Source: Nitrosopumilus ureiphilus
Lineage (GTDB): Archaea > Thermoproteota > Nitrososphaeria > Nitrososphaerales > Nitrosopumilaceae
Direction: 5' to 3'
Assembly (NCBI RefSeq): GCF_013407185.1
Contig: NZ_CP026995.1
Span: forward strand, 496,841 to 560,840
Length of the DNA stretch: 64,000 nucleotides
Shown here: in pieces, positions 24,719-32,138 of the stretch
Layout: every line of letters starts with the position of its first letter
Position numbering within the stretch: the first letter of the stretch is position 1
The notes under the pieces: generated by a model
Seen by the model: only the letters and a program-made list of their open reading frames with translations
What the model was told of the DNA's origin: nothing
Database searches by the model: none
Program-made: the position numbers and the translations under genes

Positions 24719-25228
24719 ATGAAAACTAGGTACAAAATAATCATCATAATTGCTCTTATTCCTGTTGTAGTTATTGGAGGTCAGATTGTGTTTCTTGCGG
24801 GCTCTATTCAGATAGGGGGAGTTTTGGCAAGTATTGTGTCCGATGATGCTTTTGATAAAGAAATGAGACAGCTAACTGAAGTAAAATTATTTCATGAAAA
24901 ATATGGCGAGTCTACAACAGGTCATTCCACTGACATCATAGCATGGAAAGAGATCTACTATAGCGTAAAGGGTCCAGATGGCAATCAGGCTGCAGATCTT
25001 TTTGTAAAAAAGAACATGCTACATGGGGATATCAGGATGCAATTATCATGCGTCTATGACATTCAGTCTCATCAAGAGTATCACAAGAATTCAGAATTAC
25101 AACGCCAAGAAGGAAATATCTCAGAGTATGAATCAGATGACTCTGAATTTGCACTTTATCTTGTTGATCAAGAGAAAATCTTGGAACATCTAAAGAAAAA
25201 ACATTGTTTTAGCGGAACACGTGATTAG
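24719..25228 (+). CDS. Membrane-anchored external protein, MKTR leader family, 169 residues
   Basis: An N-terminal MKTR plus hydrophobic segment (residues 5-35) is followed by a soluble external region with VKLFHEKYGEST, then FVKKNMLHGDIRMQLSC and a C-terminal helix with EKILEHLKKKHC. The leading part after the anchor resembles the small 'FLxxYP..' sensor-like domains seen in thaumarchaeal secreted proteins, but no family can be named. The gene follows the 55-residue member and is followed 3 bases later by the next member, suggesting one transcript. Confidence 0.65.
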   Translation: MKTRYKIIIIIALIPVVVIGGQIVFLAGSIQIGGVLASIVSDDAFDKEMRQLTEVKLFHEKYGESTTGHSTDIIAWKEIYYSVKGPDGNQAADLFVKKNMLHGDIRMQLSCVYDIQSHQEYHKNSELQRQEGNISEYESDDSEFALYLVDQEKILEHLKKKHCFSGTRD

Positions 25229-25231
25229 AAA

Positions 25232-25486
25232 ATGAAAACTAGATACATAGTCATTGGTGCAGCAATCTCTCTTCTGATAGGTATTACTATAACAATACTT
25301 AGCTTTGAGACAATTCCTTCTGAGCCTCCAGAGAATTTACCTGAAGGAATGACTCCTATTACTCCAGTTGTTGGAAAGACATCAACTCCAGCAGGACCTT
25401 ATCTAATTTATGCAAGCATTCTTGTTTTGATTGGAACAGGAATTTACTCTTTGGTTGGTTTTCTGAAAAGGAGAAAAAAAGAATGA
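25232..25486 (+). CDS. Two-span membrane protein, MKTR leader family, 84 residues
   Basis: The protein has an N-terminal MKTR leader with membrane helix 1 (residues 5-24), a proline-rich external loop (IPSEPPENLPEGMTPITPV), and membrane helix 2 (YLIYASILVLIGTGIYSLVG) ending in a basic FLKRRKKE tail. Both ends would face the cytosol. It starts 3 bases after the preceding stop and its stop overlaps the next ATG (ATGA). No function is recognised. Confidence 0.65.
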   Translation: MKTRYIVIGAAISLLIGITITILSFETIPSEPPENLPEGMTPITPVVGKTSTPAGPYLIYASILVLIGTGIYSLVGFLKRRKKE

Positions 25487-26151
25487 AAACTAGACTTTTG
25501 ATAATCATTACAATGATCACTACCGTTTTTTTACTTGTTGCAGTTGTATATCCTACAATAAATTATAGAACTTGGGGAAATAACGAATTGTTTTATGCAC
25601 TTCCTCCACCCGGCATGAAAATAATCTGTGATGAATGGTTGTGGCAACCCCCACAAAATTGCAGACCTGTATATGTTATTCAAGATACCGATATTGCCAA
25701 TGTAACAATAATTCCAAACGCAATACCAAAGATAACTAATCTCGATAATATCATGATAACGATGGAAAGACACCCATGTTTTGGCCCGTGTCCTGCGTAT
25801 TCACTTACGATTCATGGCAATGGCACAGTAGATTATGATGGGTTTAGTTTTGTGAATCCGCTTGGCAAAAAAACAATCCATATCTCACCTGACACAGTAG
25901 CCGAATTAGTTGGCAGATTTTATGAGATTGATTATTTTTTATTAGATGATCGTTATGAGTCACCTGTTGATGACAGTTCTGCTGTAAGTACCACGATCAC
26001 CATTGGCAATTATTCAAAAAGCGTATACAACTATGCAAAAAAAGGACCAGAAAAACTACAATCATTAGAAAAAATGATTGATGATGCAACGATTTCTAGT
26101 TTGCCATGGGATGACATAGATCCAGAAAAGCATAGATCTATTGAGGAATAG
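25483..26151 (+). CDS. Exported DUF6438-like protein, MKTR leader family
   Basis: After the MKTR leader and an N-terminal helix (residues 5-25) comes an external part of about 195 residues. Its core, MERHPCFGPCPAYSLTIHGN then GTVDYDG, matches the pattern of the DUF6438 family (a CxGxCPxY motif followed by strands and a helix), a domain of unknown function in secreted proteins. The two closely spaced Cys in CFGPC may form a disulfide or bind metal. The assignment to DUF6438 is from memory of the motif. The ATG overlaps the previous stop. Confidence 0.7.
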   Translation: MKTRLLIIITMITTVFLLVAVVYPTINYRTWGNNELFYALPPPGMKIICDEWLWQPPQNCRPVYVIQDTDIANVTIIPNAIPKITNLDNIMITMERHPCFGPCPAYSLTIHGNGTVDYDGFSFVNPLGKKTIHISPDTVAELVGRFYEIDYFLLDDRYESPVDDSSAVSTTITIGNYSKSVYNYAKKGPEKLQSLEKMIDDATISSLPWDDIDPEKHRSIEE

Positions 26152-26192
26152 TAAATAAAAATCAGAGTTCAAATATTCTCCAGTCCACACAG

Positions 26193-26215
26193 TTCAAACC
26201 TTATTGGGATTTGAA
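26193..26215. repeat. Imperfect palindromic repeat, copy 1
   Basis: TTCAAACC-TTATT-GGG-ATTTGAA is found again at 32658-32679 as TTCAAACC-TGTT-GGG-ATTTGAA. In both places an AGAGTTCAAAYAT stretch precedes it by about 20-25 bases, so the repeat unit is about 50 bases. It lies just downstream of the DUF6438-like gene and could be a transcript-end hairpin or a small mobile/recombination remnant. Confidence 0.55.
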
Positions 26216-26234
26216 CTATTCATTAGAACACTTT

Positions 26235-26495
26235 ATGACCTTCTCAAATTTAGTTCAAGTAATGGAAGTATATGTACGCAAAGAGGTTCAGGCATTTGAA
26301 TATGTCTCTTTTACTGAATTTAAAAATGAAGATGAATTAGATTTCTGCTGTGAGAAATTAAAGAAATATGTCTCTATTGTAAAAGCTTGGAGTGGAAAAA
26401 TTGGAAAATTTTGCATTGTAGAAAAAGACGTTCTTACGCCAATTGATTATTGTCCTTTTTGTGGTGAAAAAATAGAGTACATTTCTGTGGAGTGA
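26235..26495 (+). CDS. Hypothetical protein with a C-terminal zinc-type CPFCG motif
   Basis: The frame is open from TTG at 26211, but that start lies in the palindromic repeat; ATG at 26235 (MTFSNLVQVMEVYVRKEVQA) gives an 86-residue protein. A charged middle region with the pair CC (FCCEKLKKY) leads to a C-terminal CPFCGEKI motif. Together these could form a zinc site. It sits between two membrane-protein genes of the MKTR series but has no leader itself. Confidence 0.5.
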   Translation: MTFSNLVQVMEVYVRKEVQAFEYVSFTEFKNEDELDFCCEKLKKYVSIVKAWSGKIGKFCIVEKDVLTPIDYCPFCGEKIEYISVE

Positions 26496-26499
26496 GAAA

Positions 26500-27573
26500 A
26501 TGAAAACTAGGTTCTTGATAATTATTGCAATATTACTTGTATTACTTCCTTGGATTAGTGGATTGGAATTTGGCATAAACAATCAAGTCATGGTGGATGG
26601 TATTACAATCAGTGCCACTGTTGTTATGAGCATCACCATTGTCTTCTCTCTAGTATCGTGGTTTTTGTTTTCATGGGCATCCAAAAATATCAAATTCGCA
26701 GGAGTTTTACTGAGCATAATTACAGGTGCATCTTTAGTAATTCCATTTACCCAAGTTTTAGGGCCGATGACAGGAGTTATTGTTGGGGTTGTGGCCGGAT
26801 TTGCAGCTTTTATGCTTCAAAAAAAGATGATGCCCCCTGCAAAAAATCAATCCCTGATAATTGCCACAATAACTATTGTCGCAACATATTTTGTTTTAAT
26901 CATGATAGTTTTAGTATCTCAGACAACCCCACTATGGGATGCTGGTAATGGTATTGGTGCATGGACTGGTACGGCAGAGATGATGGAGGAAACGGGATTT
27001 GATAATATTTTAAATAACAATATTGGATTTGTTTTCTTTCTGGTAATAATTCCCTCTTTGATAATAACAGGATGGGTAATTCAAGATAAAAAGAAAACGA
27101 AAACTAGGCCTTTGATGATAATTACAATTGTTGTTTCTGTTTCAATCTTGATGTATGTTAATTTTGCATATCCTCAGGGAGATACAATTGACCTTGATCC
27201 AGACTTGTCACCATCTTATGCATTAGATTTTGCCACCTCTACAAATTCAATTTTTGTAGTTCTCCCAATGATATTATCAATTGTTTTCTTATTGATTATT
27301 ATTCCACATTTAATTTTGAAAAGAAAAAAAATTCCTAGCAGGCCATACATATCACTTATTGCTGCTGCCATCATGTTATTTTTTGGAATACCAAGTCTAA
27401 TTAACGGATTAGAAATAATTATTTTGCTAATACAAGAAGAAAGACTGCATTCATTGGACTTTATTGCAAATCTAACTGCTATGGCATCTATTGGTTTTAT
27501 TCTTGCACTATTTGGTATGATTATACTGCTAAAATCAAAATTAATTATAAATTTACTAGGGAGAATTAAATGA
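26500..27573 (+). CDS. Polytopic membrane protein built from repeated MKTR-type units
   Basis: The 357-residue protein has about ten membrane helices. The first unit starts MKTRFLIIIAILLVLLPW. An internal segment after a basic loop reads KKTKTRPLMIITIVVSVSIL (around residue 200), and its DNA (GAAAACTAGGCC...TTGATGATAATTACAATTG) repeats the leader sequence that begins the neighbouring genes. A third, weaker unit (KIPSRPYISLIAA) follows at about residue 275. I infer that the gene arose by fusion of two or three leader-type membrane units. No transport or enzyme motif is visible. Confidence 0.65.
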   Translation: MKTRFLIIIAILLVLLPWISGLEFGINNQVMVDGITISATVVMSITIVFSLVSWFLFSWASKNIKFAGVLLSIITGASLVIPFTQVLGPMTGVIVGVVAGFAAFMLQKKMMPPAKNQSLIIATITIVATYFVLIMIVLVSQTTPLWDAGNGIGAWTGTAEMMEETGFDNILNNNIGFVFFLVIIPSLIITGWVIQDKKKTKTRPLMIITIVVSVSILMYVNFAYPQGDTIDLDPDLSPSYALDFATSTNSIFVVLPMILSIVFLLIIIPHLILKRKKIPSRPYISLIAAAIMLFFGIPSLINGLEIIILLIQEERLHSLDFIANLTAMASIGFILALFGMIILLKSKLIINLLGRIK

Positions 27574-27649
27574 ATAAACCATTAATTTTTAGATGCATAA
27601 CATTTGGCATTAATTTACTATTGCAGGTTTCCTAGTATTTTCTACGATT

Positions 27650-27871
27650 ATGGTTTTTGTTTTCAGTATTTGGATAGGTGGTGGTATTCTTAGAGTGTTG
27701 GAGCGAACAGCTAATCATCCAATCCATCTAACATTGGCTATCTTTGCAATTATTATTCTTCTATTATTGCCAATTTCATATAATTTCCATAAAAATAGAC
27801 GAAATAAGATAATTTTTTGCTCGGCTTTTACAATAATGACTATTACTACAGTAATACTGTTATCAATTTAA
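27650..27871 (+). CDS. Small membrane protein, possibly 5'-frameshifted, 73 residues
   Basis: Two hydrophobic helices (MVFVFSIWIGGG and TLAIFAIIILLLLPISY) and a third short one form a small membrane protein. Upstream, an ATG at 27570 overlapping the previous stop opens MNKPLIFRCITFGI and then terminates. In the frame of this gene hydrophobic coding (FTIAGFLVFSTIM) extends back to just that point. A one-base shift near 27613 would join them into a protein with one more helix. The intact-looking start at 27650 may therefore be artificial. Confidence 0.45.
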   Translation: MVFVFSIWIGGGILRVLERTANHPIHLTLAIFAIIILLLLPISYNFHKNRRNKIIFCSAFTIMTITTVILLSI

Positions 27872-27886
27872 TTGGAGAAAAAGAAA

Positions 27887-28645
27887 ATGAAAAGTAGAGT
27901 GTTGATAATGATTGTAATTGTTGCAGTTGTTGCATCCAGCGCAACCACATACATGATCATACCTGTAAAGTACACGGCCTCATTTTATCCGGAATGGCTT
28001 CGAGACAATATGGATGCTGCTCAAAAACTTCGTAATTCATCTGTTCCAATTATTGGGGTAGACGTGGATGAAAAAATAGCTGTTCTGACAATATACATGA
28101 CTGATGAGAATTCAGAAAAATACGTGCAAGAAATCGACGATTTGCTTGATGTTCCATTTGACATACTGTCTGAAACGCAATCAAGGGAATTGCAATGTCT
28201 AAAAACCTACAAAGACATTAGAGAAATTTCAAGAACTCATGGTTCTGCTACTGCTGAATTGCACGTAATAAAACACCAAAAATATTCTGTTGGTCAATAT
28301 GTAGAGTTAAAATGTCCTGATTTCTCAGACCTTGAATCAATGAAAAAGAACCTGAAGAAATATTCCCTTGTTACAATTCCACAAAATGCATCTGTCGAGG
28401 GAGACCAACGCTTGAACCCTCAAGAAATCACCGTGGTTATGGGAATAAACAACACTGTAACTTGGATTAATGAAGATGATGTTGTCCATACATTTGGTAG
28501 TGATGATAAAAATAATCCATGGTGGACTGATACTATGATGCCTGGCCAGTCATCCTCTGTGACATTTAACAATACGGGAATCTTTAGTTATCATGGAATG
28601 CCTGGTCCTTGGGCAACTGGTACCGTAAAAGTCCTGGATGGATAG
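27887..28645 (+). CDS. Membrane-anchored protein with a C-terminal cupredoxin-like domain lacking copper ligands
   Basis: The ATG at 27887 gives the MKSRVLIMIVIVAVVASS leader/anchor, then an external N-terminal domain (to about residue 165) and a C-terminal cupredoxin fold of about 90 residues: ITVVMGINNTVTWINEDDVV, HTFGSDD..., SSSVTFNNTGIFSYHGMPGP. In true blue-copper proteins, including the one at 43981-45180 in this window, the last loop is YFCTIHPWM with Cys, His and Met ligands. Here it reads YHGMPGPWA, so all three are gone and only the first His remains. It should not bind type 1 copper normally. Confidence 0.75.
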   Translation: MKSRVLIMIVIVAVVASSATTYMIIPVKYTASFYPEWLRDNMDAAQKLRNSSVPIIGVDVDEKIAVLTIYMTDENSEKYVQEIDDLLDVPFDILSETQSRELQCLKTYKDIREISRTHGSATAELHVIKHQKYSVGQYVELKCPDFSDLESMKKNLKKYSLVTIPQNASVEGDQRLNPQEITVVMGINNTVTWINEDDVVHTFGSDDKNNPWWTDTMMPGQSSSVTFNNTGIFSYHGMPGPWATGTVKVLDG

Positions 28646-28672: not shown

Positions 28673-28873
28673 TCATATTCTCGCTATCTCTGATTCTAAT
28701 TTTCTTCTGTTTGATCTAGTTGAATAACGTACACGAACATTGCAACATGGACATCGCAAAAACTTTTCTTTGAAATAATAATCACATTTCGTACAGTAGC
28801 ACCCACCTGTACGATATGCAATGTGTCTTGATGTTGATTCTGATTTAGTACATTGTCCTTTGCATAAAGTCAA
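28673..28873 (-). CDS. Small zinc-binding protein with Cys-rich ribbon, 66 residues
   Basis: The basic protein contains CKGQC, CYCTKC and CPCC motifs, enough for two zinc sites, with an Arg/Ser-rich C-terminus (RYSTRSNRRKLE). This is a common miniprotein type in Nitrosopumilus-like genomes, of unknown role; a nucleic-acid contact is plausible from its charge. It starts one base after the stop of the regulator gene upstream on the same strand, so the two may be co-transcribed. Confidence 0.6.
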   Translation of the reverse strand: MTLCKGQCTKSESTSRHIAYRTGGCYCTKCDYYFKEKFLRCPCCNVRVRYSTRSNRRKLESEIARI

Positions 28874-29728
28874 TTAAGATTCCTCACGGAGATGTTTATT
28901 TTGTTTTCTTTTGTCATGCCAACGTGTCAGTATTCTTTCTAGGAGTATGCCTCCCACAACAACTCCAATTGGAATTATAATTGAGAGTATTAATGGTTCT
29001 ACTGAGTCTACACCAGCACCATCAAAGGATTGAGGATAAACGGTTCTATCTAAGGAAACAGAACCTGTATTTGCAGCACCTGAATCTGAAAAATCAAAAT
29101 TTTCTACATCTGTATGAGGAGATTCAGATTCTGGAATTTGTGTGGGTTCTGATTCAGGTCTAGGCGTCCTTTCAGCATTTGAATCTTCTAGATTAACTTC
29201 AGGAAGTGGTTCAGAGGAGGACTGCGTATCACTTTCATCAACAGTTGATCTCACATCAACTATAAAATCATCCTGTCCAGATTGTTGCATCTGGTAATTA
29301 CCATCACCATGTTTGAGTGTCATCCATGATACAAATCCTGCCATGCCAATTGCTGCAAACTTTGAGAATTTCTTTAGTGAGTTAATGATGGAATAGTTTG
29401 ATTTTTCAGGAGTGATAAGAAATGACTGGTTTGTGGCAACATAGTATTTCATTTCCTGTCCCTTTGCAGATATTCCAGTTTTAGATATCTTAATCATTTT
29501 TGCTTTCTGCATCCTTTTCAAGTGATGTATTGTTAATGTCAGAGACATGTCGTTTTTTTGTGCTATTTCATTTGCAGTCATCTCGTTATCTGAGATTAAT
29601 TTTAAGATCTTTCTGCTAGAATCATTACTAAAGATTTCCCCGACCAGTTTTATTTTATCATCATTAGTTGAGATAACTTCCACTTTATCTTCTGAATCTT
29701 TGTTAGACATGACAAATAACCTACTCAT
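28874..29728 (-). CDS. Membrane-anchored winged-helix (ArsR-like) transcriptional regulator
   Basis: The 284-residue protein has a cytosolic winged-helix domain at residues 25-100 (SSRKILKLISDNEMTANEIA, MSLTLTIHHLKRMQKAKMIK). A first membrane helix is near 122-138 (FSKFAAIGMAGFVSWMTL), followed by an acidic/proline-rich external stretch (150-242), a second membrane helix at 245-266 (LILSIIIPIGVVVGGILLER) and a basic cytosolic tail. The external part contains NTGSVSLDRTVYP, identical to a segment of the divergently encoded beta-propeller protein. It looks like a one-component membrane sensor whose DNA-binding domain is tethered to the membrane. ATG at 29728 or 29710 are both possible starts. 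Confidence 0.82.
   Translation of the reverse strand: MSRLFVMSNKDSEDKVEVISTNDDKIKLVGEIFSNDSSRKILKLISDNEMTANEIAQKNDMSLTLTIHHLKRMQKAKMIKISKTGISAKGQEMKYYVATNQSFLITPEKSNYSIINSLKKFSKFAAIGMAGFVSWMTLKHGDGNYQMQQSGQDDFIVDVRSTVDESDTQSSSEPLPEVNLEDSNAERTPRPESEPTQIPESESPHTDVENFDFSDSGAANTGSVSLDRTVYPQSFDGAGVDSVEPLILSIIIPIGVVVGGILLERILTRWHDKRKQNKHLREES
29033..29071 (-). repeat. 39-bp segment shared with the beta-propeller gene, copy in the regulator
   Basis: This stretch encodes NTGSVSLDRTVYP. It differs from 30228-30266 at only four third-codon positions and lies in the opposite orientation. It falls in the external linker of the regulator just before its second membrane helix. Confidence 0.85.
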
Positions 29729-29858
29729 ATTTTATGAATTAAGTGTTAGGTAAAATCCAAATTTCATCAAACGTTATAAACAAAATATCATCAGTTACAA
29801 TACAAATGAATAACAAAGTACACATACTTGTTTTTAGGATTATTGAAAAGTGAGTTAG

Positions 29859-32138
29859 TTGGATAATAAAATAACATTTTCAGTCATTGCGGCAATCATC
29901 ATACTTGGATCTGTAGGAATGTTTTATGCCATATCCTTGGATCAGAATTCTGATTCATCTCGATTTGACACAGTCAAGATCAACATTCCCCCAATGACAA
30001 TAACTGATACAATCACAATTGAAGGTACAAATGAGATTCGCAAGTTTTCATCAGAAGAAGAGGTAAGGGCATTTCTAAAGTCATTTACGCAAGAAATTGC
30101 ATTGGATAGTTCATTCAAGTATCCAAGACCCACCCTACCTCCATTCATGGAGCCAGTTAATTTCAGAGAAAGTGGAGACGCAACGGGCTCAATCCGAATT
30201 CCAGCTATACGCACTTCTGCTTCTATCAATACAGGTTCTGTATCTTTAGACAGAACCGTCTATCCTTCACCTTTTGACATAAATCAAAACAGCATATCTG
30301 ACTATGAGGATTGGGGGCCTGAAAACCAGTACTCTCAAACAAATGTGCAGGTAAGACAAGTCGATGAGCCTGACTACATCAAGACAGATGGAACCTTTGT
30401 GTATGTGGTATATGATAGAAATTTAACAATCATTGATGCATATCCTGCAGAAGATGCCAAAGTTGTTTCAAAAGTTTCACTGGACATTGAGAACCAAAAC
30501 CTTCAGAACATGTTTCTTAATGGTGAGAGACTGGCAATATTTTATAGCAGTTATGATACAAAAGAAACCATTCCTCTTTTTGAGATAGAATCACATTCAG
30601 TTAGCAGACCAGTAACTCATGCACTAATTGTAGATGTATCTGACAAAGAATCTCCAAAAATTGTTGATGATTATTCTATTGAAGGGTATTTTTTTGATGC
30701 AAGAATGATTGAAGAGCAGATATACTTTGTAACTGTAAGCAACGTGGATTATTACAATTCTCCAATTCCTCGCATATTGGTAAATTCTGAAACTGTGATG
30801 ACCCCCGATGTGTTTTACTTTGATTCCTTTGAGCAATCATACAACTTTAACACCATAACTGCAATTGACATGTTTGATTCTGACCGGATAAACTCTGAAA
30901 CTTTTCTCATGGGTAATACTGGTACTCTATTTGTATCTGAGAATAGTCTTTACATCACATATCAAAAAAACATGCATTCGTTATACTATGATGTCATCAA
31001 AAAAGACATCTTTTTTGATGTGATGGTGCCAATGCTTCCAAAAGAAATTCAATCAAAAATACTTGAAATTAAAAATAACACATCCCTTGACTGGGGACAA
31101 AAATGGAATACCATATCAGATGTTTTGCAGCAGACATTTAACAAAATGAAACAAAATGAAAAAGAGCAACTAATATCTGAAATACAGGAACGGGCTTTTG
31201 AATACCAGACCAAGATCAGAGAAGATATGCAAAATACCGTAATTCACAAAATCTCACTTGATGGAAGCAATATAGAATACAAGGCAAAAGGGGAGGTTCC
31301 AGGAAGGCTGCTAAACCAGTTCTCAATGGATGAAAAAGATGACAGGTTCAGGATTGCGACAACTTATGAACATTTCACAAAGGATGAGGGGAATCGCAGG
31401 TACAATGCAGTGTATGTGTTAGATGAGGATCTTGATATAGTCGGAAATCTTGATGGAATTGCACCTGATGAGAGTATTTTTTCTGCAAGATTCATCAATG
31501 ACAGACTGTATCTTGTGACATTTGAGCAAATTGATCCCTTCTTTGTGATTGACTTGTCTCAAGACACTCCCAAAATATTGGGTGAATTGAAGATACCTGG
31601 ATTCTCAAACTATCTACATCCATATGACAAAGACCACATAATTGGATTGGGCAAACATACAGAAGAGACAAAAAATGGAGGAGTGCGCCAGCTGGGGGTA
31701 AAGATTGCACTGTTTGATGTGTCTGACGTGAAAAATCCTAAAGTGCTAGACGAGGTGATTTTTGATAACCGTGACTCCAATTCTGCTGCTGCCCGAGATC
31801 ACAAGGCATTTTTGTTTGCCAAGAGAAACGGTATACTCTCAATTCCAATTGATCAAAACATAAAGTCCCCTTCTGGAAAACAGTATGACTTTTGGTATGG
31901 ATTCTATGTATACACAATTGACACAGAAAACGGATTTGACAAACTTGGAAACATAAAACACTATGACAATTCAGACAGGTTTGACGTGTATTTGGATCCT
32001 CGTTCGTTTTACATAAACGATGTACTTTATACCGTATCCTCAAAGGGAATAAGGATGAATGATCTTGATGACATTCAAAACGAGATAAACTCCATTGGTT
32101 TTGAACCTACCGGGAAATTTATGGATGTTTTAAAGTGA
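29859..32138 (+). CDS. Large exported beta-propeller protein (COG4880/Beta_propel type)
   Basis: The 759-residue protein has an N-terminal anchor (residues 4-25, ITFSVIAAIIILGSVGMFYA), a linker with NTGSVSLDRTVYP (124-136), and a long propeller domain with the family opening QVRQVDEPDYIKTDGTFVYV and blades containing GERLAIFYSSYD, DARMIEEQIYFVTVS and NDRLYLVTFEQIDPFFVIDL. These match the secreted C-terminal beta-propeller proteins of archaea and bacteria. A helical insert lies at about residues 390-470. Translation is assigned to TTG at 29859; a 15-codon ORF (29806-29853) starts upstream behind a TATA-like GTTATAAAC. The role is unknown; protein or ligand binding outside the cell is likely. 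Confidence 0.85.
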   Translation: MDNKITFSVIAAIIILGSVGMFYAISLDQNSDSSRFDTVKINIPPMTITDTITIEGTNEIRKFSSEEEVRAFLKSFTQEIALDSSFKYPRPTLPPFMEPVNFRESGDATGSIRIPAIRTSASINTGSVSLDRTVYPSPFDINQNSISDYEDWGPENQYSQTNVQVRQVDEPDYIKTDGTFVYVVYDRNLTIIDAYPAEDAKVVSKVSLDIENQNLQNMFLNGERLAIFYSSYDTKETIPLFEIESHSVSRPVTHALIVDVSDKESPKIVDDYSIEGYFFDARMIEEQIYFVTVSNVDYYNSPIPRILVNSETVMTPDVFYFDSFEQSYNFNTITAIDMFDSDRINSETFLMGNTGTLFVSENSLYITYQKNMHSLYYDVIKKDIFFDVMVPMLPKEIQSKILEIKNNTSLDWGQKWNTISDVLQQTFNKMKQNEKEQLISEIQERAFEYQTKIREDMQNTVIHKISLDGSNIEYKAKGEVPGRLLNQFSMDEKDDRFRIATTYEHFTKDEGNRRYNAVYVLDEDLDIVGNLDGIAPDESIFSARFINDRLYLVTFEQIDPFFVIDLSQDTPKILGELKIPGFSNYLHPYDKDHIIGLGKHTEETKNGGVRQLGVKIALFDVSDVKNPKVLDEVIFDNRDSNSAAARDHKAFLFAKRNGILSIPIDQNIKSPSGKQYDFWYGFYVYTIDTENGFDKLGNIKHYDNSDRFDVYLDPRSFYINDVLYTVSSKGIRMNDLDDIQNEINSIGFEPTGKFMDVLK
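30228..30266 (+). repeat. 39-bp segment shared with the membrane regulator gene, copy in the beta-propeller gene
   Basis: It encodes NTGSVSLDRTVYP just before the propeller domain, near-identical in DNA to 29033-29071 on the other strand. Its position between anchor and propeller parallels its position between the two membrane helices of the regulator. Confidence 0.85.

Follow-up and report, generated by a model that had tools for sequence, protein, structure and literature searches.

In the sigma-E system of DegS and RseA, the C-termini of unassembled porins act as the signal. Another way of coupling the envelope to transcription is offered by the transmembrane transcription regulators (TTRs) such as ToxR, TcpP and CadC, which have been surveyed (PMC10269533); in these proteins a DNA-binding domain and a membrane helix are part of one chain, and a membrane cofactor may be co-encoded, as is the case for ToxS and TcpH. 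The main text of this survey makes no mention of Thaumarchaeota, of Nitroso- names or of ArsR. For the cell coat, the cryo-EM structure of the S-layer protein (SLP) Nmar_1547 of N. maritimus (PDB 8c8k) was built as a continuous chain over residues 37-1499 and on to 1616 (PMC11153153); the same paper describes stripping of the S-layer with EGTA. Archaeal S-layer monitoring is essentially without account in the papers searched, where we found nothing directly relevant to an archaeal S-layer stress regulator and no role for members of the PF09826 beta-propeller family. The locus described here lies in the window (the whole 64,000-nucleotide stretch of Nitrosopumilus ureiphilus DNA that was analysed) and provides a candidate from a globally abundant group.

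The locus consists of a membrane-tethered winged-helix regulator and an exported beta-propeller protein, encoded divergently and separated by 130 bp (Table 1). The regulator matches the Pfam family HTH_5 with 25.1 bits (cut-off 22) and PDB 1uly with an E value of 4e-5. The AF2 model agrees with the two membrane helices, the external loop and the tethered DNA-binding domain proposed by an earlier sequence-only reading of this DNA, and places the winged helix-turn-helix (wHTH) domain and both helices in the same chain. From hydropathy and the positive-inside rule, the N-terminal domain is predicted to be on the inner side of the membrane; the loop is acidic and Pro-rich, and TM2 is followed by a basic cytosolic tail. 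With HTH_5 above its cut-off and membrane helices in the same protein, the regulator falls within the structural definition of a TTR. Assignment as an ArsR/SmtB metalloregulator was rejected, since NF033788 gave 28.4 bits against a cut-off of 55 and there are no cysteines among its 284 residues. The same reading drew a comparison in logic with anti-sigma systems; assignment to these or to sigma-E type systems, in which a membrane anti-sigma factor holds a sigma factor until proteolysis releases it, was likewise rejected, because the DNA-binding domain and the membrane helices form a single covalent chain and no sigma domain was found. The propeller protein is a full-length match to PF09826 (504.5 bits, cut-off 22.4, E 5e-151), with a linker (residues 77-171) of low AF2 confidence.

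Table 1. Features of the regulator/propeller locus (positions in the window).
Feature	Position	Strand	Basis or remarks
Membrane-tethered winged-helix regulator	28874..29728	minus	284 aa; ORF, HTH_5, PDB 1uly, AF2
TM2, about residues 244-266	28931..28999	minus	AF2 helix 244-283
External loop, residues about 139-241	29006..29311	minus	disordered, AF2 pLDDT <50
Segment NTGSVSLDRTVYP in regulator, residues 220-232	29033..29071	minus	about 12 residues before TM2 (AF2)
TM1 region, residues 114-139	29312..29389	minus	AF2 helix; hydropathy, positive-inside rule
wHTH DNA-binding domain, residues 24-98	29435..29659	minus	AF2 pLDDT about 90; Pfam HTH_5
Putative operator, imperfect inverted repeat TGTTAGGTAAAAT-CCAA-ATTTCATCAAACG	29744..29773		conservation
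Candidate TATA-like element GTTATAAAC, propeller direction	29773..29781	plus	abuts operator; position conserved
Exported, N-terminally anchored PF09826 beta-propeller protein	29859..32138	plus	759 aa, TTG start
Segment NTGSVSLDRTVYP in propeller, residues 124-136	30228..30266	plus	linker between anchor and propeller
Beta-propeller domain, residues 158-738	30330..32072	plus	Pfam; AF2 and Foldseek propeller matches

Some neighbouring genes deserve mention. A 66-aa zinc-ribbon-like ORF (CxxC/CPCC; 28673..28873, minus strand) directly abuts the regulator gene, and similar small ORFs adjoin orthologous regulators (G104, G105; L129:6767-7096, L137:8523-8888); it is possibly a third component of the system. 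Orthologous regulators also adjoin genes that by eye are TATA-binding-protein-like (L146:887-1492, L147:2417-2983; G209). Five near-identical MKTR/MKSR leaders were found in the run of exported or membrane proteins at 24719-28645, and leaders of this type also occur on many surface-protein genes of relatives, in a pattern resembling a cassette array.

Regulator and propeller protein both contain NTGSVSLDRTVYP, located just outside TM2 in the former and between anchor and propeller domain in the latter, and the 39-bp DNA copies are identical at 35 of 39 positions, the four differences being silent third positions; in all these points the sequence-only reading was correct. Chance or low complexity as the source of the match was rejected: a degenerate DNA pattern of the segment core had exactly two matches in the window, in these two genes, against 0.05 expected, and the local alignment of regulator loop and propeller linker scored 89, compared with 27+-4 for shuffled loops. 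When a 22-aa query was searched against the organism's own 2.17-Mb genome, it found the regulator, the propeller protein (E 3.8e-5) and a single additional place, the main SLP (E 4e-4). This protein, of 1745 aa, aligns end to end with Nmar_1547 and reads RANTGSISLDRTVYPVPWG at the segment site, where an Ig-like repeat opens; other repeats of the same protein have similar openings (SLDRSVY, SFDSSNY, QSDKSVY and ELDQKVY). In the 151 genomes of the family, about 48 SLP-type ORFs carry RANTGSVSLDRTVYPVPFG with 100% identity, and apart from those truncated at contig ends almost all have the length of an S-layer protein. Outside the SLPs it has few carriers, namely orthologous regulators, propellers belonging to the same sub-lineage and a small number of further exported proteins. 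The segment ranks among the more conserved stretches of the SLP, a rank biased upward by a sample partly selected on the motif. A private handshake between regulator and propeller was therefore rejected, and the earlier proposal of the segment as an interaction mark of the pair gives way to a conserved S-layer segment. The premise that the segment is uncommon among unrelated exported proteins of the genome is thereby partly contradicted, as it recurs in the SLP and in some unrelated exported proteins. S-layer protein membership was also rejected, for want of tandem Ig-like domains and because only short islands match the SLP. As a separate observation, a 36-kb viral contig (L164:1-14840; IMGVR_UViG_3300009788_000211) has directly beside its head genes an SLP homologue of at least 1553 aa, with 48.5% identity to the SLP of this genome; it is either a virus-borne S-layer gene or the result of a provirus border or assembly join.

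This distribution bears on two alternatives. The segment could be a structural tether only, hooking propeller and regulator into or under the S-layer lattice with no signalling, and its presence in exported proteins of 610, 408, 314 and 209 aa that have no regulator function agrees with such a role. However, a tether leaves unexplained why the segment is conserved in a transcription regulator that shares a promoter with its partner, and we consider this account clearly unlikely. The sequence-only reading had also suggested a processing site; a surface protease would then cut the proteins that bear the segment, the cut in the regulator being the first step of regulated intramembrane proteolysis. 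The position just outside TM2, the occurrence in several exported proteins and the existence of archaeal membrane proteases acting at the envelope (PMC9263693) are in line with this. Nevertheless, the homologous segment of the N. maritimus SLP (around residues 1012-1026) lies uncut within the continuously built chain (PMC11153153), which disfavours a processing site. Moreover, since the wHTH domain is attached to TM1, a cut ahead of TM2 would not free it, and we regard processing as highly unlikely.

In the window pair (P 0.008), in G056 (P 0.003) and in G209 (P 0.03), the DNA copies in regulator and propeller genes resemble each other beyond the level predicted from codon usage; in the G140 pair the likeness is not above this prediction. 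Between regulator and SLP gene there were 28 identical positions against 28.1 expected from codon usage. The excess indicates that the neighbours exchanged sequence in some lineages, whereas the likeness to the SLP was held at the protein level and does not stem from a recent copy; for the same reason, recent gene conversion from the SLP gene was rejected. Twelve orthologues of the window regulator (hereafter class B) were compared, and all of them keep TGS-S-DRTVYP-PF, with D227, V230 and Y231 invariant, while the remaining loop diverges and stays acidic and Pro-rich. In ten of these regulators, pN/pS (Nei-Gojobori) was 0.17 for the motif and 0.27 for the HTH; pS was about 0.74 for each of the two, synonymous sites being saturated. 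As estimated from these sequences, purifying selection on the segment is no weaker than on the DNA-binding domain, and neutral debris is disfavoured. A non-functional exchange of sequence between the neighbouring genes and the S-layer gene would fit the close DNA copies in the three pairs named above, but not the purifying selection at saturated synonymous sites, nor the exclusively silent differences of the window pair and the absence of any DNA excess with the SLP gene; its probability is very low.

Orthologous loops have up to three SLP-like islands, in the same order as in the SLP. Besides the segment, further islands correspond to SLP479 (WSSGEEIPVVLVDSD) and SLP818 (EAPTHSGVVSF), and several class-B loops carry (D)EWSSGEEIPVV..DSD and EAPTHSGV. 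The 993-type segment scored 44-83 and WNSGEEIP up to 63, whereas the maxima of shuffled sequences were about 36 on average; weaker islands (scores 31-45), taken one by one, are not significant.

Pairing of the two gene types, the co-occurrence of which the sequence-only reading had proposed to examine, was found for 31 of the 56 propellers in the 151 family genomes, in every case (31/31) in divergent orientation. The pairing is thus real; there are also orthologous regulators that keep the segment with no adjoining propeller. The S-layer segment is limited to one sub-lineage of PF09826 propellers, WNSGEE is also present beside it in sister-lineage propellers, and cognate pairs have the further common modules MEPVPAPQPEP and PEPEPxHSGVQ. 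These extra modules, the partly common DNA history and the conserved divergent arrangement speak for the main rival explanation, in which the propeller segment docks like with like onto the regulator segment and the exported partner is itself the signal. The pairing would be strand with strand here and helix with helix in the subfamily described below, whose divergent partners share an unrelated segment, and the S-layer likeness would reflect a good edge strand only. However, the segment and its S-layer likeness persist in regulators that have no adjoining propeller, and homotypic pairing would not require several islands arranged as in the SLP. In addition, most pairs of the common class of regulators (class A) have nothing in common: they score near shuffled values, only L077 being strong, and sharing in the class as a group reached a permutation p of 0.012, not corrected for phylogeny. 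Docking of this kind is, in our judgement, unlikely, though it has more in its favour than the other rivals. The regulator loop of class A had no surface-protein match in six genomes; thus segment sharing was rejected as a rule for all regulator/propeller pairs, and not every member of the family displays a copied peptide. One regulator (L174, in G103) has a long loop of tandem repeats (MAPVxxGAAxSTGPA...), and AMAPVT is common to this loop and the propeller linker, with a low-complexity score not above shuffled values.

A second subfamily shows a parallel arrangement. At G000:C1:195099, and likewise in three other genomes, a paralogous regulator has in its loop a 28-residue segment that recurs in the divergent partner, an exported protein of 125-134 aa (scores 54-68 against a null of 20-22+-4); it is positioned just before TM2 in the regulator and just before the partner's own membrane helix. 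Moreover, most genomes tested encode an exported membrane protein of 122 aa that contains the external segment of another regulator group, YTLEEALELQ...NPASGSGTPIFD, with 75-79% identity over about 32 residues. By these comparisons, the sharing of a membrane-proximal segment by a regulator and a surface protein has arisen with at least two unrelated segments. The conserved 122-aa protein, which carries the LEEAL...GSGTP segment of the regulator loops and ends in SGKYAAMGRG, has no match in Pfam, NCBIfam or PDB, and its gene (G000:C1:1905563-1905661, L220), like its orthologues, adjoins a ribosomal S15-like protein gene. For the small MERL partner in G098 and G200 (DESVYPVP...SAGLRAN), likeness to the S-layer was not significant against shuffles and was rejected.

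The promoter region shared by the divergent genes contains an operator-like inverted repeat, which is kept in 26 of 27 intergenic regions examined, in the form TGTTTGGTAAAATT-NN-AATTTCACTAAACC in class A and TTAGGTAAAATC..GATTTAATCAAA in class B. It precedes every class-B regulator examined, whether the neighbour is a propeller, a small exported, an Ig-like or a SIMPL-type protein, and is also found upstream of several paralogous regulators. Single repeats are mostly not significant alone, being marginally above shuffled AT-rich DNA, and it is their conservation that stands out. A search of the own genome with these patterns, allowing up to 3 mismatches, gave about six sites, compared with 0 for the reversed pattern. 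They belong to the window pair, the class-A pair, a paralogous regulator, an exported gene that has S-layer-like genes as neighbours, a disrupted homologue of the small partner and a copied promoter. In this last case (G000:C1:1025001; L180:5002) the propeller promoter, the operator and the first anchor codons were copied before an unrelated exported ORF. From the position and conservation of the repeat, we infer that it would be bound by the regulator's own wHTH domain.

The account that we tentatively favour, and to which we would give somewhat less than an even chance, is that of an autoregulating transmembrane one-component regulator that displays a surface-protein peptide and senses S-layer biogenesis through the binding partner of this peptide. 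The cytosolic wHTH domain would bind the inverted repeat in the shared promoter and control its own gene together with that of the propeller. The disordered external loop would present, near TM2, the opening segment of an S-layer Ig-like domain, which the co-regulated propeller would bear on its own tether. The segment might then be a recognition handle for whatever engages it in the SLP; this could be S-layer chains that are still unassembled, which would bind by strand addition, or a factor near the membrane that handles such chains. About 12 residues from the membrane, the regulator segment probably cannot reach the assembled S-layer canopy, and its closeness to the membrane makes such chains or such a factor likelier targets than the finished lattice. 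Supply of or damage to the S-layer would alter the occupancy of the handle and, as a consequence, the DNA-binding state; the outer partner, the sensing and the direction of regulation are what we infer here. Against this account, no operator site was recognised upstream of the main SLP gene in the own genome at up to 3 mismatches.

Taken together, the data suggest a family of regulators that use a copied piece of a surface protein to read the state of the cell coat. A wider principle, which we regard as doubtful, is that every transmembrane winged-helix regulator in ammonia-oxidising archaea presents a peptide copied from a surface protein near TM2 (the S-layer segment here, LEEAL...NPxxGSGTP in the subfamily with small exported proteins) and senses assembly or breach of the coat by competing with the genuine protein for its binder. 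Possibly, the displayed peptide is also a bait for agents that attack the S-layer. The locus offers a testable candidate, with a named regulator, a putative operator, a co-regulated partner and an exact S-layer peptide. If the favoured account is true, the state of the S-layer would feed directly into transcription, and shared segments could serve as a signature for matching orphan membrane regulators with surface proteins.

Two features are new, namely a tethered regulator that bears an S-layer peptide and the pairing of proteins that share a segment; the open-licence papers searched describe neither. Like the TTRs, the window regulator has its DNA-binding domain and membrane helix in one chain, and the propeller, encoded beside it on a shared promoter, could be a counterpart of the ToxS cofactor if it binds the outer domain of the regulator. 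It differs from them in its ArsR-like wHTH domain, its two-helix hairpin and a disordered loop with an S-layer peptide, and in having a divergent exported partner that bears the same peptide. The propeller, in turn, is like other PF09826 proteins a full-length match, exported and anchored. Nmar_1547 has the same segment at the start of an Ig-like domain (PDB 8c8k, PMC11153153), whereas regulator and propeller have isolated segments of about 15-20 residues and no Ig domain. With DegS/RseA the locus would have in common the proposed logic, in which a surface-protein peptide reports the state of assembly; in contrast to that system, with no protease or sigma factor shown here, it is the regulator itself that displays the peptide.
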